Shown here one piece after another: positions 11,201 to 41,729 of a stretch of DNA of 45,100 nt; within the stretch, counting starts at the first letter, position 1, and each line of letters starts with the position of its first letter. The notes beneath the pieces were generated by a model, which was given only the letters and a program-made list of their open reading frames with translations, was not told where the DNA came from and searched no databases. The stretch is from positions 1 through 45,100 of IMG/VR virus record IMGVR_UViG_3300043399_000352; one strand, written 5' to 3'. Made by a program: the position numbers and the translations under genes. The stretch is from a virus.

Positions 11201-11232
11201 AGTGTAGGAGCGGGGTCTCAGTACACGGACAC
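11201..11232 (-). promoter_or_regulatory. Late promoter motif before tail tubular protein A
   Basis: Read on the minus strand: GTGTCCGT (11232-11225), exactly 18 nt, then TACACT (11206-11201). The predicted start site near 11194 gives a ~13-nt leader that includes the CAGGAG ribosome site. Same spacing as five other sites. Confidence 0.75.
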
Positions 11233-11835
11233 TCAGCGCCGGCGCAGCCAGACGTTGCCGCCCCGATAGGTCCCGGTGTAGATCTGCCCGGGCCCGTACA
11301 CCACCCCGAACTTGACCTCGGAGGGGTCTGGGTACAGACCGATGCGCACGCCAGTCATGGCGGCCTGGTCGGCGGCCTCGGTCGCAGCTAGGGTGCCGAC
11401 CGACGCCCGGAAGCCGTCGGCGTATACGGTGTCGGAGGGCTCGGTCGCGGCGAGTGTGCCGACCGACGCACGAAAGCCGTCGGCGTAGACGATGTCGGGC
11501 TCTTCGAGCGCCGCCAGGGTGCCGACGTGCGCGATGAATGCGTCGGCGTCGAACGTGTCGGGCTCTTCGGTAGCGGCTAGGGTGCCGACGTGAGTGACAA
11601 AGCCCGCGGCTGCGAAAGTGTCGGTCTGCTCGGTTGCAGACAGTGAGCCGACGTGGGCCAGGCTGCCGACAAACGATGCAGTGTCTTGCGCCTCAGTCGC
11701 GGCCAGTGAACCGACGTGCGCAACGTCGCCAGCAAACGACGCGGTGTCCTGCGTCTCGGTCGCGGCAAGCGTGCCAGTGATCGCTCCTGTCGAAACGACC
11801 TGGCCGTTGATGTAACTGACGCTTAGGTAGTTCAT
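11233..11835 (-). CDS. 21-aa-repeat virion protein (200 aa)
   Basis: Residues 21-146 are six tandem 21-residue repeats of the form G[TS]LAATExxDTxxxxGxxxHV, with a seventh partial copy. A C-terminal beta-like domain of about 50 residues ends in GGNVWLRRR. LAATE-type repeats are seen in phage and prophage structural proteins; the function is unknown, with surface decoration or tail attachment being plausible. The gene lies 4 nt after the 651-aa protein gene and directly before a late promoter, so it closes the head-side unit. Confidence 0.8.
   Translation of the reverse strand: MNYLSVSYINGQVVSTGAITGTLAATETQDTASFAGDVAHVGSLAATEAQDTASFVGSLAHVGSLSATEQTDTFAAAGFVTHVGTLAATEEPDTFDADAFIAHVGTLAALEEPDIVYADGFRASVGTLAATEPSDTVYADGFRASVGTLAATEAADQAAMTGVRIGLYPDPSEVKFGVVYGPGQIYTGTYRGGNVWLRRR
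11398..11775 (-). repeat. Six 63-bp tandem repeats (21-aa units)
   Basis: Six degenerate in-frame 63-bp units each encode G[TS]LAATExxDT...HV or ...ASV. The third and fourth positions after LAATE and the second half vary most. The units are coding repeats with no unique spacers between them, so this is not a CRISPR array. Two units in the later half (residues ~105-146) are nearly identical, suggesting recent duplication. Confidence 0.85.
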
Positions 11836-11839
11836 GGCA

Positions 11840-13795
11840 TCAGACGAAGGTCAACCCGGTGTTGTTGCCCGCGTCGGTTGAGTTGGTGAGCGTCCAGGAA
11901 CCTGGCTTCTTGAGGATCGCCTGCGTGGTGTTGGTGCTACCAAGCTGCAAGAGGTTGCCAGCAGTTCCGGCGATGCTGAAGCTAGTGAACTCGTTGGTCG
12001 TGCCGCCGGTAAATTGAATACGGCCAATGGCTGTGTTTGTGATGTTGGCAAACTTGTTGGAGCCCGTGACCGTCAGTGTGCCGGTGCCACCTTGGTTCAG
12101 CGTTGGGTAGGTCTGGATGCCACCGCCAGCAAATGTCTTGGCGGATGCGCTTGTCAGGCTGATCGTGCCTGTGCCTGTAACGGTAGTGTTGGCTGGAGTT
12201 CCTGCTGTCCATGCTGAAACAGCAGAAAGAGTCCATGTTCCTGAGCCTATTGCAATGGTTTTCGAAGAACTACTGTTACTTAATACAGAACTTGAATTAG
12301 TAAAGTTATAACCGTTGGCATCAAAAGTTCCAACAGTTATTTGGCAAGTATTTGCGGTGTTGTTTGATACGAAAGCGTCTTGCAGCGTAACAGACCCTGA
12401 AGGGCTATTGACACTTAATTGCTGCGTAAACGTCTTCCCAGCACTCGTAATAGTCTGACTACCACGCCCTGCAAACGTCAGCGTTCCAGTGCCCGTCAGG
12501 GTGGTGCCAGTACCGTTGATCCAGTTGCCATAAATCGTTGGTGTTGACGTACTCGTTGCCAGCGTCATTGTGTTGCTGGTACGGGCAGACATATCAATCG
12601 TGCCGATGTTGTAAGCAATACCAATTGTTATTGTTCCAGATGTTGGGTAAAGTGCAGGGAAAACTGCGGTATCTTGTGCCAAAGGAAAGTTATTAACCGC
12701 CGCACCTGTGCCATTTGAAGTAAGCGACCAGTTAGTTCCTTGCCAGTTTGAACCACCCGCCGTTAATGCGTAATACACCGTTTTAGCCGCATCAAACGTA
12801 ATCCCGCTGTTGCCCTTGCAGTCACCCAATCGAGTACCGCTGACAGGAGCCGCTGCACCAGCAATGGTGATGTCGCGGAAATCAATGTCAGTGAGCGATG
12901 CGACGGCAGCGCAGGTCAGTGTGCGGGTTGTGCCAATGGTGTCAGAGCGCAAGAACGTCCGCATCGTGGCGTTTGTACCTGCGGAAAGCGTGAGAGTGCC
13001 GTTGATGGTTTGGTTGGCGGAAATTGAAATCTGGTTTAAACCAACGTTGGTGCGGCCCGTGATTGACCAGTTGTTAAATGTATTTGCGCCACTAACCGTT
13101 GTAACGCTTGAGTTGTTACTGGTGAAACTGACGTTGTAGAACGTTTGCCCACCACCGTTAAATGTCGGGCCGGCAACGGAACAGACAATGCTAGACGTGC
13201 CCGCATTAAATGCCAGATTCGTGGAAGTGGCAAAGTTAATTGGAGTTGCAATACTCAACGTAACTGTACTGCTACCCAGATTTATCGTGCGGGTGTTGCT
13301 GTTGCTGGACGACAGAGAACCTGCGGTGACGTTGTAGTTGTTGGTGGTGAAGGTGCCTGAGGTTACAGTAATAGCGCCAGAAGATGTCAAGGCATCGCCC
13401 AGTGTCCAAGTGGCAGTTGATGTCCCTGTAAAACCAAACGTGGGTGGGCCTAAAGTTTTGCCAGCAGTTGTAATAGTGAATGAACCTGACGAAGCACGAA
13501 TGTCTATGGCTCCTGTATGGCTCCATGTTGTACCAGCACCAATGGTCAAACCACCATGTATGGTGATTGTTCCAGAGCCTGACATGGTTCCCGTGAACCC
13601 TGTCGTGTTTAATGTTCTACAAACGGCTTGAGCCGTAACAGGAGTGACAGTACCCGTTGAACTCGCGTCAAAATACACATCATCTGCACTGGTCGGAACA
13701 GACGCACCACCAGTACCATTAGACGTAGTTGCCCATTTGGTGCCAGCGGTGCCGTCCCAGTTGGCAGTGCCCCCAACCCAATACCTATCAGCCAT
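11840..13795 (-). CDS. Beta-rich virion/appendage protein (651 aa), AT-richer than its neighbours
   Basis: Starts MADRYWVGGTANWDGTAG and is dominated by Thr, Ser, Gly, Asn and Val, with repeating patterns such as SGTITI, TFTTNNYN and GTLTLSAG. This is typical of stacked beta-strand or beta-helix phage surface proteins whose first residues are YWVGG-type. No catalytic residues are recognised. The base composition drops visibly relative to both flanks (long stretches near 12241-13700 are rich in A and T), which suggests a separate origin. A host-surface or decoration role is inferred. Confidence 0.82.
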   Translation of the reverse strand: MADRYWVGGTANWDGTAGTKWATTSNGTGGASVPTSADDVYFDASSTGTVTPVTAQAVCRTLNTTGFTGTMSGSGTITIHGGLTIGAGTTWSHTGAIDIRASSGSFTITTAGKTLGPPTFGFTGTSTATWTLGDALTSSGAITVTSGTFTTNNYNVTAGSLSSSNSNTRTINLGSSTVTLSIATPINFATSTNLAFNAGTSSIVCSVAGPTFNGGGQTFYNVSFTSNNSSVTTVSGANTFNNWSITGRTNVGLNQISISANQTINGTLTLSAGTNATMRTFLRSDTIGTTRTLTCAAVASLTDIDFRDITIAGAAAPVSGTRLGDCKGNSGITFDAAKTVYYALTAGGSNWQGTNWSLTSNGTGAAVNNFPLAQDTAVFPALYPTSGTITIGIAYNIGTIDMSARTSNTMTLATSTSTPTIYGNWINGTGTTLTGTGTLTFAGRGSQTITSAGKTFTQQLSVNSPSGSVTLQDAFVSNNTANTCQITVGTFDANGYNFTNSSSVLSNSSSSKTIAIGSGTWTLSAVSAWTAGTPANTTVTGTGTISLTSASAKTFAGGGIQTYPTLNQGGTGTLTVTGSNKFANITNTAIGRIQFTGGTTNEFTSFSIAGTAGNLLQLGSTNTTQAILKKPGSWTLTNSTDAGNNTGLTFV

Positions 13796-13797
13796 GT

Positions 13798-13971
13798 TTA
13801 CTCCTGCGGAGTTTCAACAGGCTGGGCAGTGACGATTGCAATCCAGTTGTCGCGGCGTTGCTCTTTCACTGCCTCAATTTGCTCTTCGCTCAAGCCGTGA
13901 TCATCAGGCAGATGAAGGGCATCAGCAAACTTGCCGTAGTCGGTCTGAAACTCAAAGTCGATCTTGACCAT
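13798..13971 (-). CDS. Small acidic protein (57 aa)
   Basis: Start chosen at the ATG 13969-13971 (MVKIDFEFQTDYGKFADALHL); an upstream extension in the same frame is Arg/His-rich and overlaps the neighbouring gene antisense-like. The middle part (LPDDHGLSEEQIEAVKEQRRDNWIA) looks like one or two short helices. Similar tiny acidic proteins sit beside structural genes in many phages. It ends 2 nt before the start of the 651-aa gene. Function unknown. Confidence 0.7.
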   Translation of the reverse strand: MVKIDFEFQTDYGKFADALHLPDDHGLSEEQIEAVKEQRRDNWIAIVTAQPVETPQE

Positions 13972-13979
13972 CGCCAGCC

Positions 13980-14354
13980 TCAGCCGTGGGTGATGGTGGC
14001 GCTGCTCAGCGTTACGGTGTCGCCTGCGGTGATGCCGACGCTCGAGAGGTTGATGTTCGCGCCGGAGGTGCCGACGGTCAGACCGGACACGATGACGGTG
14101 CCGCTGCTGTCCTTGATGCGGGCCTCGGCCGCGGTGCCGCTGGCGTCGGCGTTGGTGTCCGACTGGGGCATGCTGAACGTCAGCACGCCAGACGAGACAG
14201 ATCCGCACGGGTCGGCCAGGGGGATGACGGCCAGCACGGTGCCCATGCTGGTGGTGCCGATCTCGAGCGTGCCGTTCGACGAGCCGCCGTCGATCGCATC
14301 GCGCACGGCCGTGAGCCGGGTGTTTTTGACGGTGGTGGAATAAACGACTGGCAT
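13980..14354 (-). CDS. Small virion protein, beta-rich (124 aa)
   Basis: ATG at 14354 (MPVVYSTTVKNTRLTAVRDAID). The protein is Gly/Ser/Thr/Val-rich with alternating hydrophobic strands and no signal peptide. This N-terminus is common among small head or tail-associated proteins of BPP-1-like phages. It lies 8 nt before the small 57-aa gene. The exact role is not recognisable. Confidence 0.75.
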   Translation of the reverse strand: MPVVYSTTVKNTRLTAVRDAIDGGSSNGTLEIGTTSMGTVLAVIPLADPCGSVSSGVLTFSMPQSDTNADASGTAAEARIKDSSGTVIVSGLTVGTSGANINLSSVGITAGDTVTLSSATITHG

Positions 14355-14366
14355 GTCGGGTGCCCC

Positions 14367-14723
14367 TTAGATTGACTTGCGTCCCGACAGTACGACCTTC
14401 AAATTGGTAAAGCCGTCACCGCCAAAGACGCGCGGTTTGATGAACACGGGCAGCTCGACGATCTGCTTGAGAGCGCCCGCGGTAAGAGTCAGCGGTGCGC
14501 CTGACGTGTCGGTCAGGGCGTGGTAGGTCTCGCCATCGTTGGAGCCGCCGATCGTCACGGAGGCCCCGCCGAACACACCCGAGACCTGGATGGATCGGTC
14601 GGAATAGACAGCGAGCCGCACGGGCTCGCCATCGTCATCGGCAAGCAACCCGGACCAGGTCGTGACCGCCACATCGAGACTGGTCTCGAACGGGAAGGTC
14701 GTAACGCTGGGCCGGGTTGCCAT
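14367..14723 (-). CDS. Small virion protein (118 aa)
   Basis: Begins MATRPSVTTFPFETSLD. It contains a beta-sandwich-like pattern (RSIQVSGVFGGASVTIGGSNDG) reminiscent of short structural proteins that follow the capsid gene in this phage group. No enzyme motif. It sits between the 69-aa and 124-aa genes with short gaps and the same strand bias, so it is part of the head unit. Function unknown. Confidence 0.75.
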   Translation of the reverse strand: MATRPSVTTFPFETSLDVAVTTWSGLLADDDGEPVRLAVYSDRSIQVSGVFGGASVTIGGSNDGETYHALTDTSGAPLTLTAGALKQIVELPVFIKPRVFGGDGFTNLKVVLSGRKSI

Positions 14724-14729
14724 CGCCTA

Positions 14730-14939
14730 TCAGGCCATGTCGGTAGCCGCGGCCACGGGGGCCTTGGCCAGCTCCGACAAGGTCTTGAGCTGAGATGCAG
14801 GCTTGGCCTTGGCCGGCGCCTTGTACTCCTCGAGCGGCACGAACCAGGAGGCCTTGGCACCTGCGGGCGCCTCGAACACCTGACCCGCGCGCACGCGAGA
14901 GCCGTTGAAGAAGCCGGTCTGGAGGGCTTTAACCTTCAT
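14730..14939 (-). CDS. Small Ala/Lys-rich protein (69 aa)
   Basis: ATG at 14939 (MKVKALQTGFFNGSRVRAGQVFEAP). An N-terminal beta-like part with a 'WFVPLEEY' patch is followed by a Lys/Ala/Pro-rich tail. Small proteins with this KALxxGFxxGxRxRxGxxF opening occur between capsid and head-tail genes in many phages. Function unknown. The start is preceded by AGGAG in the minus-strand leader (ggAGGAGctgagca). Confidence 0.78.
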   Translation of the reverse strand: MKVKALQTGFFNGSRVRAGQVFEAPAGAKASWFVPLEEYKAPAKAKPASQLKTLSELAKAPVAAATDMA

Positions 14940-14956
14940 TGCTCAGCTCCTCCCCA

Positions 14957-15424
14957 TCAAGCCTGGCTCGGGGAGTCGTAGGCGCGCCACATGGCAATGT
15001 CAGGCGTCAGGAACGCATTGACCTTACCTGCGGTGATCGCAGCGGTGCCAGTGACCTGGCGCACGCCGAGATAGCGCTTGTAGTCAAAGCCCTGCGGCAC
15101 CTTCACTGCGGCCAGCAGAGTGCCGGCCTTCAGCGTGCCGGTGCCCGTGCCAGTGCCGGTGGTGAACGCGGCGGTCTGGTAGTGCACGACCGGGTTGGTC
15201 GTCAGCGCTGCGTCCTCAGCCGAAACCAGCTGGAACGTCACGCTGCCGGCCGAACCGGCGGCGATACCGGTGTCGACGTTGATCACCAGGTACAGCTCGT
15301 CCTCGGCGCCCATGTTCGCAGCAGCGGTGCCCAGGTCGATCTGATCCCCGATCGTGTAGGTGCCGGCGGCGCCGGTGTTGAGGCTGACGGCGTCAGCAAA
15401 CTCATTGCGTTTGTCGATGATCAT
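14957..15424 (-). CDS. Bbp16-like capsid cement protein (155 aa)
   Basis: The opening MIIDKRNEFADAVSLNTGA and the following 'GDQIDLGTAA' are characteristic of the Bbp16 family, which stabilises the capsid of Bordetella phage BPP-1. The rest is a beta-rich barrel-like sequence with AAVKVPQGFDYKRYLGVRQ near the C-terminus. The gene follows the major capsid gene by 30 nt, as in relatives. The role is to clamp the expanded capsid at threefold or quasi-threefold sites (family knowledge). Confidence 0.88.
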   Translation of the reverse strand: MIIDKRNEFADAVSLNTGAAGTYTIGDQIDLGTAAANMGAEDELYLVINVDTGIAAGSAGSVTFQLVSAEDAALTTNPVVHYQTAAFTTGTGTGTGTLKAGTLLAAVKVPQGFDYKRYLGVRQVTGTAAITAGKVNAFLTPDIAMWRAYDSPSQA

Positions 15425-15454
15425 TTTCAGGTTCCTTTCTGTTCAATGCTGCGG

Positions 15455-16447
15455 TCAGACCACGCGGGCCTCGTTGTTGACCAGGGCGTCGGTGCGGCGC
15501 ACGGGGATGTCGTCGAACGTCATCACGCGCTTGCCTTCCACGGTTTCCCAGGACAGGTTGGAGCTGACGCGCTCGAGGATGCCCAGACGCAGCTTCTCGC
15601 GGATCGTGCGGTTGACGTACCAGCAGGTGCGGCCCTTGCCGAAGCTCGGGATACGCTCAGAAGCCTGAACCATCCAGTTGATCAGGTTCTTGGTGTTGGC
15701 GATCGTGTTCAGGTCGGACACGTCGACGTTGGCGATGCGCACGAAGTAGCGCCAGTCGCGGATCGTCAGACCAGCGTCCCAGCGATAGTGCGTGCGGTAG
15801 CCTTCCATCCGGCCGCCGTTGCCATCGACGTTCTCGATGGTCACCTGGCCTTTGTCGGTCATCGACAGACCAGCCTTCGAGCCCTTCGGGTAGATACCGA
15901 AGCCGGTCTGGGGACCCCAAACGCACAGCCAGATGGAGGTGTTGTCGGTGCTCGAGCCGCCAGCGTCGATGATGTTGTCGACGTTCTCAGCAGACAGCGA
16001 GTTGAAGCGCGGAGCCAGGCCGGTGAAAGCCTCGGGCTCGGTGCCCTCGTTGCCGTAGAACAGCGTGCTGGCCATCTCCTGGCTGATGCCTTCGATGTGC
16101 GCAGCGTCTTCGCTCAGGCGGAAGGCGGCGGTGTTGCCGTTGAGGTCGGCCAGGGCCTTGTCGATCTCGGCGTAGGCCTCGAGCATGCCGCACGAGTCGG
16201 TCACCTGCGCGGTGGTCGACTTGGTGGGCTGCACGCCACCGTACAGCTTGCGCCAGGTGGGAGTGGGCAGACCGGTGCGGACGGTGGTCTTGTTGCCGGT
16301 GGGCAGGTTGCCTTCGACCCAGCTCATGTCGCTGAGCACGTCGTTGGACTGGTTGAGCAGTTCAACGATCGTGGCGATCGAGCCATCGGGGTCAGTACGT
16401 TTCGCGACGTCCAGGAGCGTCGGGTTGTTTGCAGCGAGAGCAGCCAT
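15455..16447 (-). CDS. Major capsid protein (330 aa)
   Basis: A BPP-1-type HK97-fold major capsid protein by sequence appearance: N-terminal helical arm (NPTLLDVAKRTDPDGSIATIVE), an aromatic-rich middle (ALADLNGNTAAFRLSED, FYGNEG) and a C-terminal domain with WYVNRTIREKL and the 'DDIPVRRTDALVNNEARV' ending typical of the family. The ATG at 16447 has AAAGGT upstream. It sits between scaffold and cement genes, as expected. Confidence 0.9.
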   Translation of the reverse strand: MAALAANNPTLLDVAKRTDPDGSIATIVELLNQSNDVLSDMSWVEGNLPTGNKTTVRTGLPTPTWRKLYGGVQPTKSTTAQVTDSCGMLEAYAEIDKALADLNGNTAAFRLSEDAAHIEGISQEMASTLFYGNEGTEPEAFTGLAPRFNSLSAENVDNIIDAGGSSTDNTSIWLCVWGPQTGFGIYPKGSKAGLSMTDKGQVTIENVDGNGGRMEGYRTHYRWDAGLTIRDWRYFVRIANVDVSDLNTIANTKNLINWMVQASERIPSFGKGRTCWYVNRTIREKLRLGILERVSSNLSWETVEGKRVMTFDDIPVRRTDALVNNEARVV

Positions 16448-16460
16448 TTGAATTTACCTT

Positions 16461-17069
16461 TCAGTTCATGTTGGGGAACAGTTTCTTTGCGATGTCCGTC
16501 TCGGGCCCTTTCGGTGCGCCGGAAACGAACCGGTCTTCGCTGATAGCTTTACCGGCTTTCACAAATGCTTTGATGACCTCGGGGTGGTTGCCCAGTCCCG
16601 ATGCGTTCAGCACGTCCTTGAGCTCGGGCGTTCCAAACGTGTCAAGCGCTTTGCGTGCGATGCCCAGGTTTTCTTCGAGCTTGTCGCCACCGATCTCTTT
16701 GTCGGTCTTGACCTTCTCCACCCAGGACTCCACCAGCTTTGCGTGCGCTTCGACTTGGCGCTGGGCTTGCTTTGCAGCAATGTCCGCCAGCTTCTGCGCC
16801 GCGGTCTGGTCGAGCTTGAGCTCCTTGGCAATCGTCGTGAACTCTTCGGCCGAGGCCTTATCGAGTTCAATTCCGTCTGGCATTTTCAGGTCATAGCTGT
16901 CGGGCACCTTGACCTCGTCGGTCTTGGTTTCCTCGGGCTTTGCCCCGTCGGCGCCCTGGCTGTCGCCAGTTGCCGAAGTGTCCGCCGGCTTATCGGCAGT
17001 GCTATCTGCTTTGGTCGCATCCCCAGCGTCGTTGGAAGGTGTGCTGGTTGTCGCGTTAACGTCACTCAT
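16461..17069 (-). CDS. Scaffolding protein (202 aa)
   Basis: The first ~55 residues are Asp/Ala/Thr/Glu-rich and likely disordered. Next comes VPDSYDLKMPDGIELD, a signature of phage scaffold proteins, then a long charged coiled-coil-like helix (residues ~75-150) and a Lys-containing C-terminus that could bind the capsid. It lies directly upstream of the capsid gene. Its ATG overlaps the end of the Bbp19-like gene by 8 nt. Confidence 0.88.
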   Translation of the reverse strand: MSDVNATTSTPSNDAGDATKADSTADKPADTSATGDSQGADGAKPEETKTDEVKVPDSYDLKMPDGIELDKASAEEFTTIAKELKLDQTAAQKLADIAAKQAQRQVEAHAKLVESWVEKVKTDKEIGGDKLEENLGIARKALDTFGTPELKDVLNASGLGNHPEVIKAFVKAGKAISEDRFVSGAPKGPETDIAKKLFPNMN

Positions 17070-17382
17070 CTTTGGCCTTAAATTCCTTCAGGACTTTCAT
17101 GTACCCGTCGGGTGACGCTTCCAGGAGCTCGCTGGTGAGAAACAGGCCCATGTGCCGCTTGCCTTCACTGAAGGCCATTACTGACCCGGAGTGATTGAAG
17201 GAGCTGCGGAACACGCCTGCCTCGTCCAGCATGCGACCGATGATGCGTCGCCCTTGCGGGTGGCCCAGCCACCAACGCAGATCCTCCAGCTCTTTGCGCC
17301 GGCGCTCGCGCGCCACCAGCTCTTCGCTTTCGGCTTCGCGTGCCAGACGGTTCAGGTCTGTGGGGTCTTTGTCGGTAACCAC
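17062..17382 (-). CDS. Bbp19-like protein (106 aa)
   Basis: GTG start at 17380-17382. A helical, Arg/Glu-rich N-terminus leads into LRWWLGHPQGRRIIGRMLDEAGVF, then NHSGSVMAFSEGKR. This is the typical core of the small Bbp19 family encoded between portal and scaffold in BPP-1-like phages. The function is unproven; an assembly role is plausible. A variant late promoter (17389-17420) ends only 7 nt before the GTG, so the mRNA may be nearly leaderless or a different start may be used. Confidence 0.8.
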   Translation of the reverse strand: MVTDKDPTDLNRLAREAESEELVARERRRKELEDLRWWLGHPQGRRIIGRMLDEAGVFRSSFNHSGSVMAFSEGKRHMGLFLTSELLEASPDGYMKVLKEFKAKDE

Positions 17383-17388
17383 GCGCGC

Positions 17389-17420
17389 ATCCTAGTGCGC
17401 GTACACAACGTCACGGATAC
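17389..17420 (-). promoter_or_regulatory. Late promoter motif (variant) before the Bbp19/scaffold/capsid unit
   Basis: Minus strand: GTATCCGT (17420-17413, one mismatch to GTGTCCGT), 18 nt, then TAGGAT (17394-17389). The exact spacing argues that the match is real despite the mismatch. Confidence 0.6.
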
Positions 17421-17422
17421 GC

Positions 17423-19111
17423 TCAGACCATCGGCGCCGGGCTGACGTTGCTGTATCCCTGCAGCGACGTGAGCACGTCCTGCAGATTGTTGGTGTCGAT
17501 CTCGCTCGCGGTCTTCGCGCTTTCGACGACTTGCGGTGCGGTGGCTGCAGACTGCGCCGCCTGCATCGCGGCCTGGCGCTGCTGGCGCACCGCTGCGACC
17601 TGGTCGTCGGGCACGATCACCTTCGGGTTTACGCCGTAGGCCTCGCCGTAGTCGTCGACCACCTGGTCGAAGTCGATTTTGTCGAGCACCTCGGGCTTGA
17701 CCGCGGCCAGCTGGCCGACGGTGCCCAGCAGGCGGTCCATGCCCTGGGTCGCGACCGCACGCTGCGCCTGAGCCAGCACCGAGATGAACTCGACATCGAG
17801 GTCCATGCCCTCGAGCTCGGGCGGAGGCGGCGGCAGGATGCCGGCCTCGCTCGCGTAGTCGAACGTGATGTCGATCAGCGGCTGCAGCAGCTCGTTGTGC
17901 AGGCGCTCGAGCACCGGGCCCAGCATCAGCAGCTTTTCCTCGTGGCGCTCGGCGACCTCGGTGGCCGTGATGCCAGAGCGGTTGTCGTTGGCCAGCATCA
18001 GGAACAGGTCGGCGTAGTACGCGCTGCGGATGCGCTCGCGCACGTCTTGGATGTCGAGCAGCAGGTGCTGCAGGTCCAGCTGCACCTCGTAGGCCGAGCG
18101 CACGCCCTGGCCCTGCCCCATGCTGTCGACGTAGAACACGCCGCCCGGCAGGCGGGCCTTGTGCGCTTCCTTGTACTTGGTCGGCACCTGCAGCGGTGGG
18201 TTGACCTGGTAGTCGATCGCCTGGCCCTTGCGCAGCTGCTGGTGCTGCAGCTGCTTGACGTCGCCCAGGCACTCCATGCCGGGGCTCGTGCCATACACGT
18301 CGTTGCCGGTGACGACCCAGCGCGGGGCCAGCACGGGGAAGCGGTTGAAGCCCGACTCGCTCAGGAACTTGTCGAAGGCCTCGCGCCCGGGCTCCACGTA
18401 GTAGCTGGCAAAGCGCTTGTTCTTGCCGTCGAGCTTCTTGAGGTCGCGCTCGCGGCGCGGCTCGACCAGGTGCACCACGTCGACCCAGGCGTCATAGCTG
18501 CCCTTGTCGTACAGGTTGCGCACGGTGTCGGAGACGTTCTCCTTGCCGAACTTGGCCACCAGCTGCTCGACCGTCATCTGGAACTCGCGGCACAGCGTGT
18601 TGACGTTGCCCTTCTCGTCGGTGGCCAGCGCGTACTCACCCACGGTCAGCGGGTGGTGGTGAATCACGTTGTCGAAGTCAGGCAGCACGCACGAGGCGCC
18701 GGTGCCGAACAGGCCGAGCTCCTCGTACATCGTGTGCAGGCTGCGGTAGGTGTTGCTCGCAGCGAAGACACCGCGCAGCAGCTCGGCGCTTTGGTGCAGC
18801 CAGGCCTTGACGGCGCCGGCCTCCATCAGGTCCTTGTCCTTGATGCCGAGTCGAAACCACGGCCGGGCCGGGCTGGTGATGCCCGACATCAGGCCGGCGG
18901 CCAGTGTCCTGGCGCCGAAGACGGCCGTGTTGTCGAGGATGTGGTTGGTGCGCTTGTCGCCCCGATTGCGATCAGTCACGACGAAGCGACCAGCACGCGG
19001 CTGCTGGTACTCGCTGATCTCGCGCCAGTGCGTGAGCCAGCTCGAGCGCTCAGTCCACAGCGCCTGCTTGCGCGCCAGGATGCGCTGCCGTCGATTGATC
19101 GGCTGGTCCAT
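17423..19111 (-). CDS. Portal (head-tail connecting) protein (562 aa)
   Basis: Podovirus-type portal of the T7/BPP-1 'head-tail connector' family. It has an N-terminal WREISEYQQPRAGRF segment and the conserved LDNTAVFGARTLAAGLMSGITSPARPWF. The middle has GTGASCV, PRWVVTGNDVYGTSPGM and QQLRKGQAIDYQVNPP. A C-terminal helical barrel ends in a Gln/Ala-rich tail. A PPPPPELEG turn lies near residue 430. Twelve copies should form the DNA gate at one capsid vertex. The ATG directly abuts the stop of the 63-aa gene. Confidence 0.93.
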   Translation of the reverse strand: MDQPINRRQRILARKQALWTERSSWLTHWREISEYQQPRAGRFVVTDRNRGDKRTNHILDNTAVFGARTLAAGLMSGITSPARPWFRLGIKDKDLMEAGAVKAWLHQSAELLRGVFAASNTYRSLHTMYEELGLFGTGASCVLPDFDNVIHHHPLTVGEYALATDEKGNVNTLCREFQMTVEQLVAKFGKENVSDTVRNLYDKGSYDAWVDVVHLVEPRRERDLKKLDGKNKRFASYYVEPGREAFDKFLSESGFNRFPVLAPRWVVTGNDVYGTSPGMECLGDVKQLQHQQLRKGQAIDYQVNPPLQVPTKYKEAHKARLPGGVFYVDSMGQGQGVRSAYEVQLDLQHLLLDIQDVRERIRSAYYADLFLMLANDNRSGITATEVAERHEEKLLMLGPVLERLHNELLQPLIDITFDYASEAGILPPPPPELEGMDLDVEFISVLAQAQRAVATQGMDRLLGTVGQLAAVKPEVLDKIDFDQVVDDYGEAYGVNPKVIVPDDQVAAVRQQRQAAMQAAQSAATAPQVVESAKTASEIDTNNLQDVLTSLQGYSNVSPAPMV

Positions 19112-19303
19112 TTACTGGCCGAGGAGCGTGGCGCGGCCGGTGGGTGCGGCGCCGGCGCCCGAGGGGCCGGTCAGCAGCGAAGACATGCCCATGCCGCCGG
19201 CGCGATTGCGCCTGGCCTTGTTCATCAGATTCGCGGTGTCGGGCTGCTTAACCTCCTGCGGGGGCGGAGGCGGCGGAGGAATATCCGGGGAAGACATGCA
19301 CAT
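19112..19303 (-). CDS. Small proline-rich protein between terminase and portal (63 aa)
   Basis: MCMSSPDIPPPPPPPQEVKQ, followed by a short basic/Gly-rich tail (NLMNKARRNRAGGMGMSSLL). Short 'MC-SxP-PPPP' proteins occupy this slot in many podovirus genomes; their role is unknown. The start at 19303 is supported by AGGAGT 7 nt upstream. Its stop is immediately followed by the portal ATG. A late promoter lies at 19330-19361, making it the first gene of the portal unit. Confidence 0.78.
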   Translation of the reverse strand: MCMSSPDIPPPPPPPQEVKQPDTANLMNKARRNRAGGMGMSSLLTGPSGAGAAPTGRATLLGQ

Positions 19304-19329
19304 GGGGCGGACTCCTGTGAGTTGCAGGC

Positions 19330-19361
19330 ATTGTGCTGCGCGCAGTTTGCAACACGGACAC
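19330..19361 (-). promoter_or_regulatory. Late promoter motif before the portal unit
   Basis: Minus strand: GTGTCCGT (19361-19354), 18 nt, CACAAT (19335-19330). The predicted start near 19323 gives a ~20-nt leader with AGGAG before the ATG at 19303. Confidence 0.75.
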
Positions 19362-19368
19362 CCCAGCC

Positions 19369-20973
19369 TCAGACGCGGGCGTAGGGGTCGTAGTCGAGCA
19401 CGTTCTGCGGCGTGGCCTCGCGGTCCAGGTAGCGCAGCTGCGGCACCTTCGGCGTGACCATGTTGGCCAGCACCAGGGCGCTCGCCCGGTCTGGCGATCG
19501 GCCCACGCGCTTGACGATCTCCTCGCGGCTCTCGACCTTGATCGTCATGCCCGAGAGCTCCCAGCGCGGTGCGCACAGCTCCTTGACCAGCTCGGGGTCC
19601 GGCGGCAGGCAGATGCCGTTCTCGGCCTCGGGGTCGAGCGCCTCGCGCATCTCCCACCAGATCTGGGTGCGCAGGTTGAAGAACCCGAGCCGGCCCGACT
19701 TGTCACGCGCCGTCGCCTTCTCGCTCACGTTCACGCCGTAGACCGGCTGGCCCGTTTCAGCCAGCACGTCGAAGGGGCTCGCGCCGACGCCGATTACGTC
19801 CAGGTGAATCGGTGCGTGGTCGCGGTGCTCGGCGATCACCAGGCCTGCGACCTTGCGCCCGCTCGGCGTCTCGGTGCCCGGGTGGATCTGCAGGCGATCG
19901 AACCACAGCTCGGTGCTCTCGGTCTTGTAGCGCTTGGCAATGACCGTGCTGTCGGCGCCGCCTCTAGCCACGTCGACGCCCAGGCTCATGAGCTCGCCCT
20001 TGCGTGCTCGCTCGCGCCAGCGCTCCTGGGCGATCTCGACCCAGCGGGTCGGGATGACCTGCCAGGGGTCGTCCTCCATGCCGGCGTGGAAGTCGCCGAG
20101 CAGCATCTGGCTGCGCAGGGGCTCGGGCAGGGCCTGCAGCTGCGCCATGTAGCCGGTCGACACGAGAAACGGGTTGTCGGTGATGCGGCTCGGCACGAAG
20201 GTGCGCGACTCGGGCCGGATGATCTCCTCGGGCCGGTAGCGCTCGGCGTCGAACTCGTACACCCGGCGGCCACCCACGAGCACGAAGGCGCGCCCGTCGT
20301 CGCTGTCGATCCACACGTTCTTGCCGGTCTCGGGGTCGACGTACACGTAGCGCAGTGCGCCCGGGTCGGTCGGGAACAGGTGGTGCTTTTTGTCGAGCCA
20401 GGGGCCGAAGAAGTCGACGACCCAGCGGCCCTCGGCGCTGGTCGGTGGGTTGAAGGTCAGCAGCGTGCGGGTGCGCTGGCCGGGCCTGGTGGTTCGCACC
20501 CAGCCCTTGACGAAGCGCACCTGCTGCTCGAGGAAGTTGGCCGCCTCATCGATGACCAGCAGGTCCTTGGGCCGGCCCTGGTACTTGGTCTCGTCGCCCA
20601 GGTTGGGCATGGAGTTGAATTCGATCTGGCGCTCGCCGTCGTTGTAGACGGGCGGATTGCCGGTCACGAGCTGCGGGTCGACGATCTCACGCAGGCGGTC
20701 GATGATGCCCTTGAGCTGCGGGCCCTCGCGCCGAAACATCTGCGCCCGGTAGTGCTGCGTCAGCGCCAGGCCGATCGCCAGGTCCGTCTTGCCACCGCCG
20801 GCCGCGCCACCGAACCCGATCACGTCGGCCTGCGATTGGTAGGCCAAGGTCTGCGGGCCAGGCAGCGGGCGCCAGGGTCGCTCGGCCAGGTCGCCGGCAA
20901 TCAATGCGGCGAGCTCTTCGCGCTCGGCGGGCGTGAGGTAGCGCTCGAGGTCGCGCGCCTGCTGTGGGGTCAA
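19369..20973 (-). CDS. terL: Terminase large subunit (534 aa)
   Basis: ATP-driven DNA-packaging motor and nuclease. The Walker A motif GGAAGGGKT spans about residues 55-63 (K62). Walker B is LLVIDEAA (D142, E143). A coupling motif LLTFNPP lies at ~171-177. The nuclease domain starts at GVDVARGGADS (D334, D341). The start is a TTG at 20971-20973 overlapping the small-subunit stop as TTGA; no ATG in frame precedes Walker A. A late promoter lies just beyond its stop. Confidence 0.95.
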   Translation of the reverse strand: MTPQQARDLERYLTPAEREELAALIAGDLAERPWRPLPGPQTLAYQSQADVIGFGGAAGGGKTDLAIGLALTQHYRAQMFRREGPQLKGIIDRLREIVDPQLVTGNPPVYNDGERQIEFNSMPNLGDETKYQGRPKDLLVIDEAANFLEQQVRFVKGWVRTTRPGQRTRTLLTFNPPTSAEGRWVVDFFGPWLDKKHHLFPTDPGALRYVYVDPETGKNVWIDSDDGRAFVLVGGRRVYEFDAERYRPEEIIRPESRTFVPSRITDNPFLVSTGYMAQLQALPEPLRSQMLLGDFHAGMEDDPWQVIPTRWVEIAQERWRERARKGELMSLGVDVARGGADSTVIAKRYKTESTELWFDRLQIHPGTETPSGRKVAGLVIAEHRDHAPIHLDVIGVGASPFDVLAETGQPVYGVNVSEKATARDKSGRLGFFNLRTQIWWEMREALDPEAENGICLPPDPELVKELCAPRWELSGMTIKVESREEIVKRVGRSPDRASALVLANMVTPKVPQLRYLDREATPQNVLDYDPYARV

Positions 20974-21515
20974 GCCAGATCCCCGAACTCGTCCTGCTGC
21001 TCTTTGCGCGCTGCAGCGAGCGCCATCAGCTGCGCCACGCGGGCGGCCTTGGCCGTCTCATCGACCTGCTGCACCGGGCCGCCATCGGCGCCGGTGAGCT
21101 CGGTGCGGTCGGCATAGACCTTCTTGCGCCGGCCCTTCAGGTACAGGGCCAGCAGCGAGTCGCTGTGCTTCTTGACGGTCAGCGGCACGGGCTGGCCGTT
21201 GGCGTCCAGCACCTGGCGGTACTGCTCTTTGCCATCGTTGTCGATGTAGCGCTCGTACACGTACTGCAGGCGGCCCTGGTGGAGCACGGGCTCGTCGAAG
21301 CCCACCACAGCCCGCCTGAAGGCTTCCTGCTCGGCGCGGTCGATGCCTTCCTCCAGCGCCTCGTCCCAAGCCTGGGCAAAGCCCTCGTCGTCCTGTCGAC
21401 CACGCCAGGCGGTCGAGCGGTTGATCCCCGCGACCTCACAGGCGTGACGTATCACCGGCACGTTGCGCAGCGCCTCCAGGAACAAAGGTTTCCAGTCGAT
21501 GGGTTTGATGGCCAT
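20970..21515 (-). CDS. terS: Terminase small subunit (181 aa)
   Basis: An N-terminal HTH-like region (LFLEALRNVPVIRHACEVAGINRSTAWRGRQ) would bind the packaging site. A helical oligomerisation part (RAEQEAFRRAVVG) and the SDSLLALYLKGRRKKVYADR segment, frequent in this family, follow. It immediately precedes terL with a 4-nt overlap. The -10 of the upstream late promoter ends 7 nt before the ATG and no ribosome site is visible, so translation may be leaderless. Confidence 0.88.
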   Translation of the reverse strand: MAIKPIDWKPLFLEALRNVPVIRHACEVAGINRSTAWRGRQDDEGFAQAWDEALEEGIDRAEQEAFRRAVVGFDEPVLHQGRLQYVYERYIDNDGKEQYRQVLDANGQPVPLTVKKHSDSLLALYLKGRRKKVYADRTELTGADGGPVQQVDETAKAARVAQLMALAAARKEQQDEFGDLA

Positions 21516-21521
21516 GCCCGC

Positions 21522-21553
21522 AATTTAGCTTGCTGCTGCAATCACACGGACAC
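21522..21553 (-). promoter_or_regulatory. Late promoter motif before the terminase genes
   Basis: Minus strand: GTGTCCGT (21553-21546), 18 nt, TAAATT (21527-21522). An extra GTCCGTG half overlaps just upstream. The motif lies in the last codons (VRVSV) of the HTH gene. Confidence 0.7.
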
Positions 21554-21772
21554 ACGGACCAGTCGTCCCAAGGCCTGACCGCGGCGCCGGCCGGTGGCGA
21601 TGTGCGCGACGCAGGACTTGCTGACGTCCATCTTCTCGGCGACCTGCGCGTAACTGAAGCCGGCTTCAAGCAGAGCCAGCACCTGATCAACCTCGCGATC
21701 CAGCAACTTGGCTCGCGGATGCGACTCGCCAATGCGGCGCCCGTTTTCGTTCAATGCGACCAGCTTCTGCAT
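21542..21772 (-). CDS. Small HTH DNA-binding protein (76 aa)
   Basis: The C-terminal half (LDREVDQVLALLEAGFSYAQVAEKMDVSKSCVAHIATGRR) is a clear helix-turn-helix of the resolvase/invertase-like or homeodomain-like type. It is too short to be a recombinase. It sits between the octamer-repeat region and terS, so it might bind those repeats or act as a packaging or late regulator. Its final codons contain a late-promoter element. Start ATG at 21772 with GGAAAGG upstream. Confidence 0.75.
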   Translation of the reverse strand: MQKLVALNENGRRIGESHPRAKLLDREVDQVLALLEAGFSYAQVAEKMDVSKSCVAHIATGRRRGQALGRLVRVSV

Positions 21773-21851
21773 GTCCAGGCCTTTCCCTTAACAAAGTTGC
21801 AATCTGATGCACGTTCAGAGTTCCAGTCCCTGTTTGCAATTTTTTGCACAT

Positions 21852-21987: not shown

Positions 21988-22051
21988 GCCTCCATTCCTG
22001 CCATGCAAACGTGCAAATAAACGCCTATTCGCAATTTGTTGCGCGCTCATG

Positions 22052-32222: not shown

Positions 32223-32223
32223 C

Positions 32224-33284: not shown

Positions 33285-33442
33285 AGTGCCCACAATGCAC
33301 CGGCTGGCTAAAAGTGCTGCAGACAAAGCAACAACCTGACGGCACGACCTATCGTCGCTACGAGTGCGCCAACCTGCACCGGTTCAGCACCCTGGAGCAG
33401 GTGGCCCAGCTCAAGCGCGGGCGCCAGCGCAAGAATGCGTAA
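33281..33442 (+). CDS. Zinc-ribbon protein (53 aa)
   Basis: CPQC near the N-terminus, then YRRYECANLHRF as a likely second metal-binding half (Cys/His), with a basic tail (KRGRQRKNA). Reminiscent of Ogr/Delta-like or NrdR-type small zinc ribbons found in phage operons. Its end overlaps the helicase start by 8 nt. Nucleic-acid binding is likely; the target is unknown. Confidence 0.75.
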   Translation: MKCPQCTGWLKVLQTKQQPDGTTYRRYECANLHRFSTLEQVAQLKRGRQRKNA

Positions 33443-35616: not shown

Positions 35617-35646
35617 AAATATACATTATGTGTACCGAAACGGGGG

Positions 35647-35681: not shown

Positions 35682-35683
35682 GC

Positions 35684-36094
35684 ATGCTTGAGATCAACGC
35701 CCTGCCTGGCCGGCACCTGCGCGCCCTCCTGGAGCTGATCGGCGAGCAGCGCGTGTGCCGGGAGCTCAACGTCCACCGCACCACGGTGCGCCGTTGGCTC
35801 GCCGGCCAGGTCCAGATTCCCGGTCACCAGCACCAGGTCATCCGCATGCTGCTCGGCGATCTGCCGGGGACCTGCGGCAAGTGGACCGGCTGGCGTTTCC
35901 ACGACGGCCAGCTCGTCGCCCCAGGCGGCGACAGCTTCAGGCCCGGCGACGTGCTCAGCCTAATCATCCTGCGCCAGCAGTTGACCGCCCAGCGCCGCGA
36001 GCTCGAGGCCCTCAAGGTCCGCCTGGCCATCGCTGAAGAAGCTGAACGGCGCCACGCGGGCGCCGCCAATGAAGACCTGGTGCTCAGGGCTTAG
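35684..36094 (+). CDS. DUF3653/VC1465-like HTH regulator (136 aa)
   Basis: N-terminal HTH (VCRELNVHRTTVRRWLAGQVQIPG). Next is WTGWRFHDGQLVAPGGDSFRPGDVLSL, typical of DUF3653-type phage proteins, and a C-terminal coiled coil (RQQLTAQRRELEALKVRLAIAEEAE). Three operator-like sites stand before it and it ends the rightward block. It overlaps the convergent minus-strand gene by 4 nt. It is the best-placed candidate for the late activator; this is inference from position only. Confidence 0.75.
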   Translation: MLEINALPGRHLRALLELIGEQRVCRELNVHRTTVRRWLAGQVQIPGHQHQVIRMLLGDLPGTCGKWTGWRFHDGQLVAPGGDSFRPGDVLSLIILRQQLTAQRRELEALKVRLAIAEEAERRHAGAANEDLVLRA

Positions 36095-36881: not shown

Positions 36882-37903
36882 TTACTCCCTTTCGACGCGC
36901 CGCGTGAGCGCAGGAATGTCAGGTAATCAGCGGCGGCCTCCACGTCCCAGAAAGGCTTGACTCGCTCAGCCGCTATTTTCTTGGACGGGTCGATGACAAC
37001 GGACACGCCGGGCGCCAGGCGCTTCGGCCGGAAGCCTTTCTCCTTGGCGAAGTCGTCGATCACCTTGTAGCCCGACAGGCGGAAGAACCAGTGCACGTCA
37101 CCCTCGATCGACGGCTCGACGCGGGCCTCGTCGACGTGGGTGTGGCCGGCCACCAGGATGTGGTCCTTGTGCCCGAACAGCAGCTCGCGCTTCATGCCGT
37201 GGGTGTCCGAGTATTGGCTGCGCCCTGGGAAGTCGTGGCGGGCGTGGATGCGGATCTGCTCACCGCCCGGGAAGTTGAGCGCCAGCCTGGCGCCGTGCGC
37301 CTGCAACGGCCCGCTCGGGCCCTGCTTGACGATAAAGTTCAGCAGGTCCATGCCCTTTTCCCAGCAGTCGTGATTGCCACCCACGACAAACAGGTTGGGC
37401 GCCAGGCCCAGCATCCACTCGGTCAGGCGCAGGCCGTCGCGAAAGGTGGTGCCCTGGTTCGCGTACAGCGCCTTCAGGCGCCCGACCCAGTTGTTGGTCA
37501 GGTCACCCACATGCCCCGCGAAAAACGCCTTGGTGCGCCCGACCGTGGTCAGGTCGTGCTCGAGCTGGGCGATGTCGCAGTGGTCGTCATCGACGTGCGG
37601 GTCGCCCACCAGGAACAGGCCGATCGGGCCGGGGGTCTTGACCTGCACGGGGATCAACTTGGCCCAGGCCTCGTAGGCGTTGGCACGCGCCATGCCGGCT
37701 TTCTTGCGGGCGATCAGCGCCTCCAGCGGCTCGTTGGGGTCGGGCGCCGGGGAGACATTAACCTCCTCGGAGAATGGCTGCATGCGTCCTGCCCAGTACC
37801 GCACCGTCGTGCGCGGTACGCCGAGCTCGCGTGCGATTGCGTGGTGAGCGTCACCGCGCCTGATCTTGTCCTCGACCACGGCGCGCAGTTTCTTTCGGTC
37901 CAT
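36878..37903 (-). CDS. HTH plus calcineurin-like metallophosphoesterase (341 aa)
   Basis: Residues 1-40 form a HTH (AHHAIARELGVPRTTVRYWAGR). The catalytic domain carries the metal ligands in order: GDPHVD (D101, H103), GHVGDLTN (D134), GGNHDCWE (N177, H178), IHARHDFPG and LVAGHTHVD. A phosphodiesterase or nuclease acting on nucleic acid or nucleotides is likely. Phages often carry such HTH-phosphoesterase fusions in late regions; the substrate is unknown. ATG overlaps the GNAT stop by 1 nt. Confidence 0.87.
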   Translation of the reverse strand: MDRKKLRAVVEDKIRRGDAHHAIARELGVPRTTVRYWAGRMQPFSEEVNVSPAPDPNEPLEALIARKKAGMARANAYEAWAKLIPVQVKTPGPIGLFLVGDPHVDDDHCDIAQLEHDLTTVGRTKAFFAGHVGDLTNNWVGRLKALYANQGTTFRDGLRLTEWMLGLAPNLFVVGGNHDCWEKGMDLLNFIVKQGPSGPLQAHGARLALNFPGGEQIRIHARHDFPGRSQYSDTHGMKRELLFGHKDHILVAGHTHVDEARVEPSIEGDVHWFFRLSGYKVIDDFAKEKGFRPKRLAPGVSVVIDPSKKIAAERVKPFWDVEAAADYLTFLRSRGASKGSK

Positions 37904-38319: not shown

Positions 38320-38322
38320 GGA

Positions 38323-39514: not shown

Positions 39515-39527
39515 GTGCTGTACCTGT

Positions 39528-39559
39528 ATGGTAGGCAGCGAGTTTTACTAGACGGACAC
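39528..39559 (-). promoter_or_regulatory. Late promoter motif before the lysis genes
   Basis: Minus strand: GTGTCCGT (39559-39552), 18 nt, TACCAT (39533-39528). The motif starts inside the last codons of the fibre-assembly gene. Confidence 0.75.
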
Positions 39560-39814: not shown

Positions 39815-39817
39815 GGT

Positions 39818-41671
39818 TTATCCAAACTTGATGCCGATCAGCTTGTAGGTCCCGGCGGTGAACGTGCCGCCGACCGCGCTCACGGTGAAGCTGGTGATCT
39901 CGGATATGGCGCCACCAGAGGCGGAGCCTGCACCGCCCGACGCCCTGAAGAAGTGCCGCTCAGTTCCGCTGGTGATCGAGCTCGGCACGTCCAGGATGGC
40001 GGTGTTGCCGTTGGTGCCGAAGTGCGCCATCAGCACGGCGGGCGTGGCGAAGGGGGCGTTTTGCTTGCGGTTGTAAAACGAGATCTGGCCCGCATACGGG
40101 TTCGACTTGTTCGTGTCGTAGGTTGTGGTCAACCCGACCGAGAAGTACGTGCCGCCGCCGACGTTCCACAGCAGCTGGTTGCCGGAGCCCCAGCTGGTAT
40201 TGACGCCCTCATAGATCAGCTTGAAGCCATCGTAAGCCGTGCTCAGGCCGGAGAACGTGATCGAGGCGGCGGCCGGGAATGAACCCGTGGCGATCTCGGT
40301 GAACTCCAGGCCAGCGGCGCCCGCTGCCATCTTCGCTCGCGTGACCGCGCCGTCGGCCAGCTTGGGCGTGGTGACCGAGCCGTTTTCCGGCACACCCGAG
40401 GCATAGGCGCTGAGGATCTTGACCTCAATGTTGTTGGTGCCGCTGGGCGGCGCGCTGGTAAACACCAGCGAGGTGCCGGAGATGTTGTAGTCGACGTCGA
40501 CCACCTGGTGCACACCGCCGACGTACACGTCACAGCTGGCCTCGGTCGCCGGCGTTGCAGACAGCGTGAACGTCGTGGTGCTGCCGTTGCCGCTGAAGAG
40601 CTGCGGCGTGATGGTGACCGGCGACGGCGTGGCGGCATCGCTCCAGCCGCCGGCGCTGTAAACCCGCAGCTTGTCGTTGACGGTGTTGTAGTACAGGTCG
40701 CCGTACTGCAGCGCGGTGCTGTCGTTGCGCACCGACGGGTTGCTGCTTTTCGCACCTTGGTAGAGGTCAGCAAAGGTGCTCACGTCGACCAGGTTGTCCG
40801 CAACGATACCGATGTCGGCCGCTGCGCCGGCGACCGTGTTGATGTTGGCCGAGTTACCGGCGACGGCGGTCACGTTGCCCGAGATGCCGGCCACCGTACT
40901 GACGTTGCCGGAGATGCCGGCCACCGTGCTCACGCTCGCGGAGACGCCGGCGACCGTGTTGATGTTGGAGGCGTTGCCTGCGACCGAGGTCACGTTTGCC
41001 GCGATGCCTGCAACGGTGGTGACGTTGGCCGAGACGCCGGCGACCGTGTTGATGTTGGCCGCATTGCCAGCAACCGCGGTGACGTTGGCCGCGATGCCGG
41101 CGACGGTGTTGACGCTGGCGATGCTGCCACCCACCGCGCTCACGGCGGCGATGTGCACCGAGACGTTCTCGACGGCGTTGATGTCGCCCGCAACGATCTC
41201 AATGTCGTCGACGATCGGGCTGAGCGCCAAAATGCCGTCGGCCAGGTCTTGGCTCAGCTGGCCCGTCGCATCGTCGGTGACCGGCACCTTGACGGCGCGC
41301 GCCATCTCCTCGGCCAGCTGCTGGGTCTGCATAACCATCCGGTCGAGCTGGTTCTCCAGGGCCACCGGGTTGAAGTTGCCGCCGGCCGGGATGTCATACG
41401 ACTGGTCGTAATCGAGGTCGCCAGTGATGGTGAGCTTGTGCCCGCTGGGCAGCAGGTAGGAAACCGTGCCGCCAGGGCTGGTTTCCTGGTTCGCGTTGAG
41501 CGAGACCGTGTAATTGGTGCCAAGCACCAGCACGGTTTCAACGCCCGCAGCGTCGGCCTTGGTCACCTTGATGTCGCCATCGGCAAACACCTTGAAGGTG
41601 AATGGCCAGCTCGAGGTCGAGCCGTTGCCAGTGAACGGCCCGGCCTTACGGGCGGTGGATGGTGTCGTCAT
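39818..41671 (-). CDS. Tail fibre (617 aa)
   Basis: Residues ~10-120 match the T7 gp17-like N-terminal tail-attachment domain (FTGNGSTSSWPFTFKVF, ALENQLDRMVMQTQQL). Residues 181-290 are eleven 10-aa repeats (NVTxVAGNAA / NINTVAGVSA). Next come YGDLYYNTVNDKLRVYS, a second beta domain (FSGNGSTTTFTLS) and a C-terminal receptor-binding head ending AGTYKLIGIKFG. No endosialidase or lyase motif. ATG at 41671 with CAGGAG upstream. Confidence 0.9.
   Translation of the reverse strand: MTTPSTARKAGPFTGNGSTSSWPFTFKVFADGDIKVTKADAAGVETVLVLGTNYTVSLNANQETSPGGTVSYLLPSGHKLTITGDLDYDQSYDIPAGGNFNPVALENQLDRMVMQTQQLAEEMARAVKVPVTDDATGQLSQDLADGILALSPIVDDIEIVAGDINAVENVSVHIAAVSAVGGSIASVNTVAGIAANVTAVAGNAANINTVAGVSANVTTVAGIAANVTSVAGNASNINTVAGVSASVSTVAGISGNVSTVAGISGNVTAVAGNSANINTVAGAAADIGIVADNLVDVSTFADLYQGAKSSNPSVRNDSTALQYGDLYYNTVNDKLRVYSAGGWSDAATPSPVTITPQLFSGNGSTTTFTLSATPATEASCDVYVGGVHQVVDVDYNISGTSLVFTSAPPSGTNNIEVKILSAYASGVPENGSVTTPKLADGAVTRAKMAAGAAGLEFTEIATGSFPAAASITFSGLSTAYDGFKLIYEGVNTSWGSGNQLLWNVGGGTYFSVGLTTTYDTNKSNPYAGQISFYNRKQNAPFATPAVLMAHFGTNGNTAILDVPSSITSGTERHFFRASGGAGSASGGAISEITSFTVSAVGGTFTAGTYKLIGIKFG
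40802..41131 (-). repeat. Eleven 30-bp coding repeats in the fibre shaft
   Basis: Eleven in-register 10-aa units follow the pattern [NS][VI]xxVAGxxA (residues 181-290). Alternating NINTVAG and NVTxVAG units suggest a beta-helical or triple-stranded shaft whose length can change by repeat gain or loss. Confidence 0.85.
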
Positions 41672-41697
41672 GTACGGGGCTCCTGCAACTATCTACG

Positions 41698-41729
41698 ATG
41701 GTAGGTGCAGGCCCCGCGATCACGGACAC
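41698..41729 (-). promoter_or_regulatory. Late promoter motif before the tail fibre
   Basis: Minus strand: GTGTCCGT (41729-41722), 18 nt, TACCAT (41703-41698). The predicted start near 41691 leaves ~20 nt of leader including CAGGAG. It lies just after the giant gene's stop. Confidence 0.77.

Follow-up and report, generated by a model that had tools for sequence, protein, structure and literature searches.

We analysed the virus record IMGVR_UViG_3300043399_000352, a stretch of 45,100 bases taken as a whole (hereafter the window), with a focus on six late promoters that share an 8-bp box and on a neighbouring gene for a small helix-turn-helix (HTH) protein. The two ends of the window (1-127 and 44974-45100) agree at 126 of 127 bases and, once joined, open a single frame of 2,663 codons (a virion gene across the junction), so that the window is a phage genome, circularly closed and about 44.97 kb long. 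The closest named phages by capsid protein are BcepC6B (71.5%) and then BPP-1 (60.4%). Late genes lie on the minus strand and early genes for the most part on the plus strand. The gene order cro-methylase-primase-HTH-terS (terS, terminase small subunit) is found in both the window and BPP-1, the latter having a plus-strand gene before bbp27. The HTH gene of the window (Table 1) sits between the primase gene and terS, and its product is homologous to Bbp27 of BPP-1.

Table 1. Promoters, candidate regulator and associated features of the window (N18, 18 nucleotides between box and hexamer; aa, amino acids).
Feature	Coordinates	Strand	Sequence elements or basis
Gene for the 76-aa HTH protein (Bbp27 family), proposed late activator and box reader	21542..21772	-	homology, co-occurrence, covariation, model
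terS late promoter	21522..21553	-	GTGTCCGT (21553-21546), N18, TAAATT (21527-21522)
Terminase small subunit, first gene past the HTH gene	20970..21515	-	phrog_4044, 9.4e-29
Late promoter of the portal block, which includes a small gene (19300-19112)	19330..19361	-	GTGTCCGT, N18, CACAAT
Late promoter of the capsid block (bbp19-like gene, protease, capsid)	17389..17420	-	GTATCCGT, N18, TAGGAT
Late promoter of the tail genes (ATG 11181)	11201..11232	-	GTGTCCGT, N18, TACACT
Late promoter of the lysis block: holin (ATG 39514), lysozyme and further lysis genes downstream	39528..39559	-	GTGTCCGT, N18, TACCAT
Late promoter of the tail fibre gene (ATG 41671)	41698..41729	-	GTGTCCGT, N18, TACCAT
Possible further site, within gene 37903-36878	36975..37006	-	exact GTGTCCGT, N18, GAAAAT
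Rejected look-alike	7762..7793	-	GTGTCCTT, N18, TACATT

The six sites listed in a preliminary description of this DNA are all present on the minus strand, with the 8-mers, hexamers and 18-nucleotide distance reported there, and they precede six late blocks: terS/terL, portal, protease/capsid, tail (the tail gene being assigned by homology to bbp14 of BPP-1), holin/lysozyme and tail fibre. The TAnnnT form of the -10 hexamer fits five of them, the 19361 site reading CACAAT. The box, non-palindromic and 8 bp long, occupies about -38 to -31. There are seven copies of GTGTCCGT in the window, six of them on the minus strand; the sole plus-strand copy (35368) lacks a -10. At terS, the box encodes the final residues of the HTH protein, the 3' end of whose gene overlaps the promoter. 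A scan of positions 10800-22200, which hold four of the six sites, for TTGACA/TATAAT promoters (-35 at 16-18 nucleotides) found none, and a sigma70 promoter of the usual type was rejected on this ground.

The six sites are well beyond chance expectation. The exact box followed at 18 nucleotides by TAnnnT occurs four times in the window, against a mean of 0.01 and a maximum of 1 in 100 dinucleotide shuffles; with hexamers having A2 and T6 or T1 and T6, the count is six (mean 0.19, maximum 3 in as many shuffles). Allowing one mismatch in the box gives 36 sites, of which six have TAnnnT at spacing 18, one of these being the coding copy at 7793, whereas the same 36 sites have TAnnnT only three times in total over 21 other spacings from 8 to 29. 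In a motif-blind search of the window (7-mers, gaps 10-26), the top word was TGTCCGT at gap 18, with a p value of 3.8e-10 (best of 100 shuffles, 7.9e-7). The look-alike at 7793 was considered as a seventh promoter and rejected, since it is conserved coding sequence whose frame is open in 15 of 15 copies and encodes the peptide R-V-L-x-R...Y-I.

The same arrangement recurs in related phages. Among the best 80 of 297 loci related by capsid protein, 63 carry GTRTCCGT-N18-TAnnnT and 8 more the N19 form (71 in all); in one clade the spacing is 19 and not the 18 nucleotides first proposed. Eight of the 80 loci, all of them fragments of at most 9.04 kb, have neither a GTRTCCGT box at 18 or 19 nucleotides nor the box variant of genome G023. 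The 80 loci contain 142 spacing-18 matches with at most one mismatch, including 14 coding copies like that at 7793. In whole records, exact matches are present in 21 of 25, for a total of 78, always on a single strand within each record, compared with one match for the reversed pattern. When 6- and 7-mers were enumerated with gaps of 10-26, part of the box ranked first in 15 of 15 genomes (the window, 11 GTRTCCGT records, G023, BPP-1 and vB_BbrP_003). The motif-blind search gave nothing comparable in the more distant relatives BcepC6B, Tyrion, phiV10, HU1, Tr60 and AF, and inspection by eye of intergenic stretches of BcepC6B did not reveal a motif.

Box variants are found at the same spacing: GTGCCCGT in BPP-1 and GTGCGCGT (as in capsid locus L074, at N18), GTGCACGT, GTTCACAT or GTGTGCAT in other relatives. 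BPP-1 has exactly four copies of GTGCCCGT, all on the late strand and all with a -10-like hexamer at N18, located before terS, bbp24, bbp19 and bbp9, the last of these blocks running on into mtd, avd and brt. The predicted terS promoter of BPP-1 (26255-26318) lies inside the annotated start of terS (bbp26), which suggests that the true start is further downstream, at an ATG near 26255. We define the promoter class by a late-strand GTnnnCnT box with a TAnnnT-like -10 at 18-19 nucleotides, present before several late blocks, and by a gene of the Bbp27 HTH family directly before terS; all these features are found in the window. By sequence comparison, the class is wider than first described and common to many phages. 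One of its members, the Limnohabitans phage DC33 (PQ492659.1; loci L285 and L289), has a 39-kb genome with the HTH gene and box promoters typical of these podoviruses and is filed under Inoviridae, a classification that is probably mistaken.

The position of start codons is consistent with transcription from these sites. At 207 distinct sites, pooled from related phages and hence not independent, we looked past the -10 for the first start codon with an open frame of 40 codons or more: at 110 of them it lies 6 nucleotides (74 sites) or 7 nucleotides (36 sites) past the hexamer, and at the others mostly 13-39 nucleotides past it. In the window, the distance is 6 nucleotides at terS (ATG at 21515) and at the capsid block (GTG at 17382). 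Sigma70 polymerase starts about 7 nucleotides past the -10, so that the 5' end of the messenger RNA would coincide with the start codon or lie beside it, and late messengers are predicted to be leaderless where this codon lies 6-7 nucleotides past the hexamer. Leaderless late messengers are unusual for tailed phages of Gram-negative bacteria. The strand-specific recurrence of the box and this peak of start codons both support the earlier proposal of late promoters with a sigma70-like -10 and no -35 element.

That proposal also called for a phage-encoded factor, without naming a gene. We compared 49 genes of BPP-1, using iterated profiles, with 20 genomes (the longest fetched records and named relatives): bbp27 is present in 14 of 14 box-bearing and in 0 of 6 box-less genomes and is the only gene to show this distribution, BPP-1 cro31 having been rejected as a second universal gene because its matches are open reading frames of the Bbp27 family. 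Members of this family are annotated as endonuclease (Bbp27 of BPP-1), hypothetical protein or ribosomal protein. The predicted model of the 76-residue protein of the window (23 sequences; mean predicted local distance difference test score, pLDDT, 83; predicted template modelling score, pTM, 0.62) consists of a strand, three helices and a strand. A fold search with this model gave no match in the PDB at an E-value of 0.001 or better and two viral models at that level. VIA matches were weak (Z 4.8-5.9, all below 8) and corresponded to HTH domains of IstA, Tc3, PAX, GcrA and resolvases, e.g., gamma-delta resolvase with Z 5.1 over 43 residues at 2.1 A. The Pfam profile HTH_7 matched at 5.4e-5 (23.7 bits, for a curated cut-off of 23.8), and sigma70 region 4 scored E 0.021 (Sigma70_r4_2) with Z about 4.5, a value shared by many HTH folds. 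None of these matches to the predicted model is strong enough to name the family of the protein. Searches for a nuclease domain in the Bbp27-family proteins of the window and of BPP-1 returned no nuclease family at E-values up to 10, and a profile scan of the 76-residue protein likewise detected no recombinase domain. The bbp27 annotation as homing endonuclease (HNH/GIY-YIG) was thus rejected for want of a nuclease domain; the HNH-endonuclease PHROGs match through the HTH part, which suggests that the protein derives from the DNA-binding domain of a homing endonuclease.

Covariation between this protein and the box further points to the Bbp27 family. Scans with the family returned at least 80, 5 and at least 80 loci, and 160 loci holding the gene were analysed. 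In these, GTRnnCGT-N18/19-TAnnnT occurs 176 times in forward and 5 times in reverse orientation, and the box centre nn is TC, CC, CA or CG, tracking the recognition helix: SKSCVAHI or SKGCVWKI goes with TC, SKGAIAKI with CC, SKWAVGRI with CA and SKSTVADI with CG. Among 60 loci without GTRnnCGT-TAnnnT, a different GTnnnCnT box recurs at N18 in 24 (including GTTCACAT, GTTCACTT, GTGTGCAT and GTGCACCT), whereas the reverse strand, read by the same rule, has no such box. In a set of 84 distinct protein/box pairs, column 57 of the protein ranks first for box base 5 (z 16.8). When the TC class is set aside, leaving 35 distinct pairs, the same residue is the most informative on class, with 1.24 of 1.52 bits (z 10.6); columns 50, 56, 53 and 62 come next, in that order. 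Some residues pair exclusively with one base: D with G (7/7), H with C (19/19) and Y with A (6/6). In full, residue 57 is H 19, K 24, W 2 and R 2 where base 5 is C; R 9, Y 6, N 3, M 2 and one each of W, K, L and G where it is A; and D 7, K 2, R 2, G 1 and S 1 where it is G. D facing the strand opposite G, and H or K facing the strand opposite C, would be chemically sensible. Diverged proteins that keep K57 have the boxes GTACCCGT (DC33 and zth2-2) and GTGCCCGT (MW202640).

Co-occurrence of a phage gene with the box and covariation of its recognition helix with the box argue for the phage-encoded factor originally postulated and make the Bbp27-family HTH protein the likely reader of the box. 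The late promoters would be of the host sigma70 type with the -35 element replaced by the 8-bp box. The HTH protein would be made early, since its gene follows the primase gene; its recognition helix would bind the box, and the bound protein would recruit or stabilise the host sigma70 RNA polymerase, with sigma region 2 reading the -10, so that one protein would turn on together several late blocks that carry a box apiece. The sequences directly show a promoter-like anatomy that is conserved, a box and a gene that occur together, and box base 5 covarying with residue 57; binding, activation rather than repression, early expression and polymerase contact are steps that we infer from the comparison of sequences. 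We give a probability of about 0.8 to the reading that a phage activator seated over the -35 region brings the host sigma70 polymerase to the late promoters.

Several observations weigh against it. The six box-less genomes are also the more distant relatives, and the Caulobacter phage Jess A (loci L284 and L288) has a Bbp27 homologue before terS and no box found by the searches used. Of the 60 gene-bearing loci without GTRnnCGT-TAnnnT, 36 also lack another GTnnnCnT box, and 56 of all 160 obtained no box from two agreeing sites. K57 is mixed (C 24, A 1, G 2), as is R57 (A 9, C 2, G 2). When all classes are taken together, columns 44, 61 and 12, none of which belongs to the recognition helix, equal or exceed columns 54 and 57 in score and, for base 4, columns 44, 72, 32, 59 and 12 precede or equal column 54. 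The all-class covariation partly reflects ancestry and is confounded by it; we rely on the test outside the TC class and on the base-5 test. The box assigned to locus L267 differs between two covariation runs, indicating some noise.

The alternative that fares best, although we consider it unlikely, is that the HTH protein binds the box and represses, holding the late promoters shut until it is relieved, with transcription started by another factor or by the host polymerase alone. Repressors, too, bind at the -35 position, which the box overlaps, and the genome is of the temperate type, with cro-like and repressor-like genes. Activation nevertheless seems likelier because no -35 would be left to repress: without the box, these sites have no -35 element, and no promoter of the TTGACA type is present in the scanned region. 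The constant N18 distance to the -10 across many phages is what an activator or a sigma-like contact would require, and a gene that stands between those of primase and terS is well placed for a late switch.

There is very little probability that another phage protein reads the box and that Bbp27 is a mere neighbour. The early region does encode small proteins with DNA-binding or zinc-ribbon signatures, but the HTH/DUF3653 protein (35684-36094), the YdaS/Cro-like protein (25400-25729) and the zinc-ribbon protein (33281-33442) are found in 9, 12 and 7 of 15 genomes, respectively; BPP-1 and G023, both with promoters of this class, lack all three, and none is common to all box-bearing genomes. The repressor-like gene 25797-26225 was rejected as a reader, being missing from some box-bearing genomes. 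The zinc-ribbon protein is an NrdR-like protein of 53 residues encoded in the early operon (PF22811), some phage relatives of which have a C-terminal HTH-like extension; the HTH/DUF3653 gene stands at the end of a plus-strand operon. Equally improbable is a host factor, an alternative sigma or an activator, that these phages would borrow: the named box-bearing relatives all come from Betaproteobacteria (Bordetella, Limnohabitans) and could share such a factor, but the box changes between phages together with the recognition helix of the phage protein, the -10 is sigma70-like in all box classes, and a scan of a genome collection with the Bbp27 family returned only 5 relatives.

Two further regions of the window were also noted. 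In 14 related genomes, tblastn found no match for the genes at 11840-13795 and 13980-14354; the G+C content drops to 0.507 here, and the region 11840-14354, adjoining the tail promoter, is likely a recent insertion. Between the primase and HTH genes (21773-22051) are tandem and inverted repeats with five GTGAAGGGT-like copies. At the corresponding place, BPP-1 and locus L200 have inverted arms of 22 bp with a loop of 60 bp, and locus L099 has arms of 19 bp, their sequences being unrelated; this block is perhaps an origin or an operator.

Searches of the open-access literature (subscription literature being mostly outside the scope) returned no account of Bbp27 or of late promoters for phages like BPP-1, and a string search for GTGTCCGT gave unrelated primer matches among the matches listed. 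The activator reading provides a specific and testable explanation for the onset of late gene expression in podoviruses like BPP-1, whose late regulator was not found in the searchable literature, and it proposes a function for the Bbp27 family. If true, the covarying box and helix pairs would form a natural set of distinct promoter/activator pairs. One BPP-1 box precedes bbp9-mtd-avd-brt, and the diversity-generating retroelement block may for this reason be under late control. A bolder formulation, which we advance tentatively and hold to be somewhat less than an even bet, is that Bbp27-type proteins read the -35 position on their own, a homing-endonuclease-like HTH having become a 76-residue promoter-specificity subunit that replaces sigma70 region 4; its simple residue-57/base-5 code would have diversified into many distinct promoter/activator pairs, mostly leaderless and, in BPP-1, also driving the tail-fibre block that contains the diversity-generating retroelement.

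This arrangement can be compared with several known systems. In lambda, Q is encoded at the end of the cro-side early operon, adjoining the late genes, and acts as an antiterminator at one late promoter. The HTH gene is likewise placed beside the late genes, but here there are several dispersed promoters, each with its own box, and no Q-like gene was found among the scanned window proteins (a subset of the open reading frames), as the preliminary description had noted. P2 Ogr, a zinc-finger protein acting at a dyad near -55, and Mu C, a larger HTH protein, are small phage activators of several late promoters that use the host sigma70 polymerase. The HTH protein would resemble them in these respects and differ by a non-palindromic 8-mer at -35 and a resolvase- or homing-endonuclease-like HTH. 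The HTH domains of Hin and gamma-delta resolvase, Tc3/IstA, GcrA and homing endonucleases show a weak fold and profile likeness to the protein, which here stands alone with 76 residues.

In T4 middle promoters, a phage box replaces the -35 and the sigma70 -10 is kept; the MotA box, (a/t)(a/t)(a/t)TGCTTtA, is centred at -30 and lies 12 +/- 1 bp from the -10, and MotA combines an N-terminal activation domain with a double-wing DNA-binding domain (PMC2988021). The likeness to MotA/AsiA consists in a phage box over the -35 used with a host -10; the differences from the system so described are a GTRTCCGT-like box 18-19 bp from the -10, one small HTH protein, and late rather than middle genes. A T4 MotA/AsiA middle promoter was rejected for the window, the box sequence and 18-nucleotide spacing not fitting that description, and neither protein was named among the 31 window proteins or hits that were profile-scanned, no search having been aimed at an AsiA-like partner. 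The box would work like a MotA box but is not one. The closest counterparts are the Rauchvirus phages BPP-1 and vB_BbrP_003, with the same promoter architecture, the box GTGCCCGT and a Bbp27 homologue directly before terS; they differ from the window in the box centre (CC versus TC), and BPP-1 has four boxes, none of them found at its tail block, versus six in the window.

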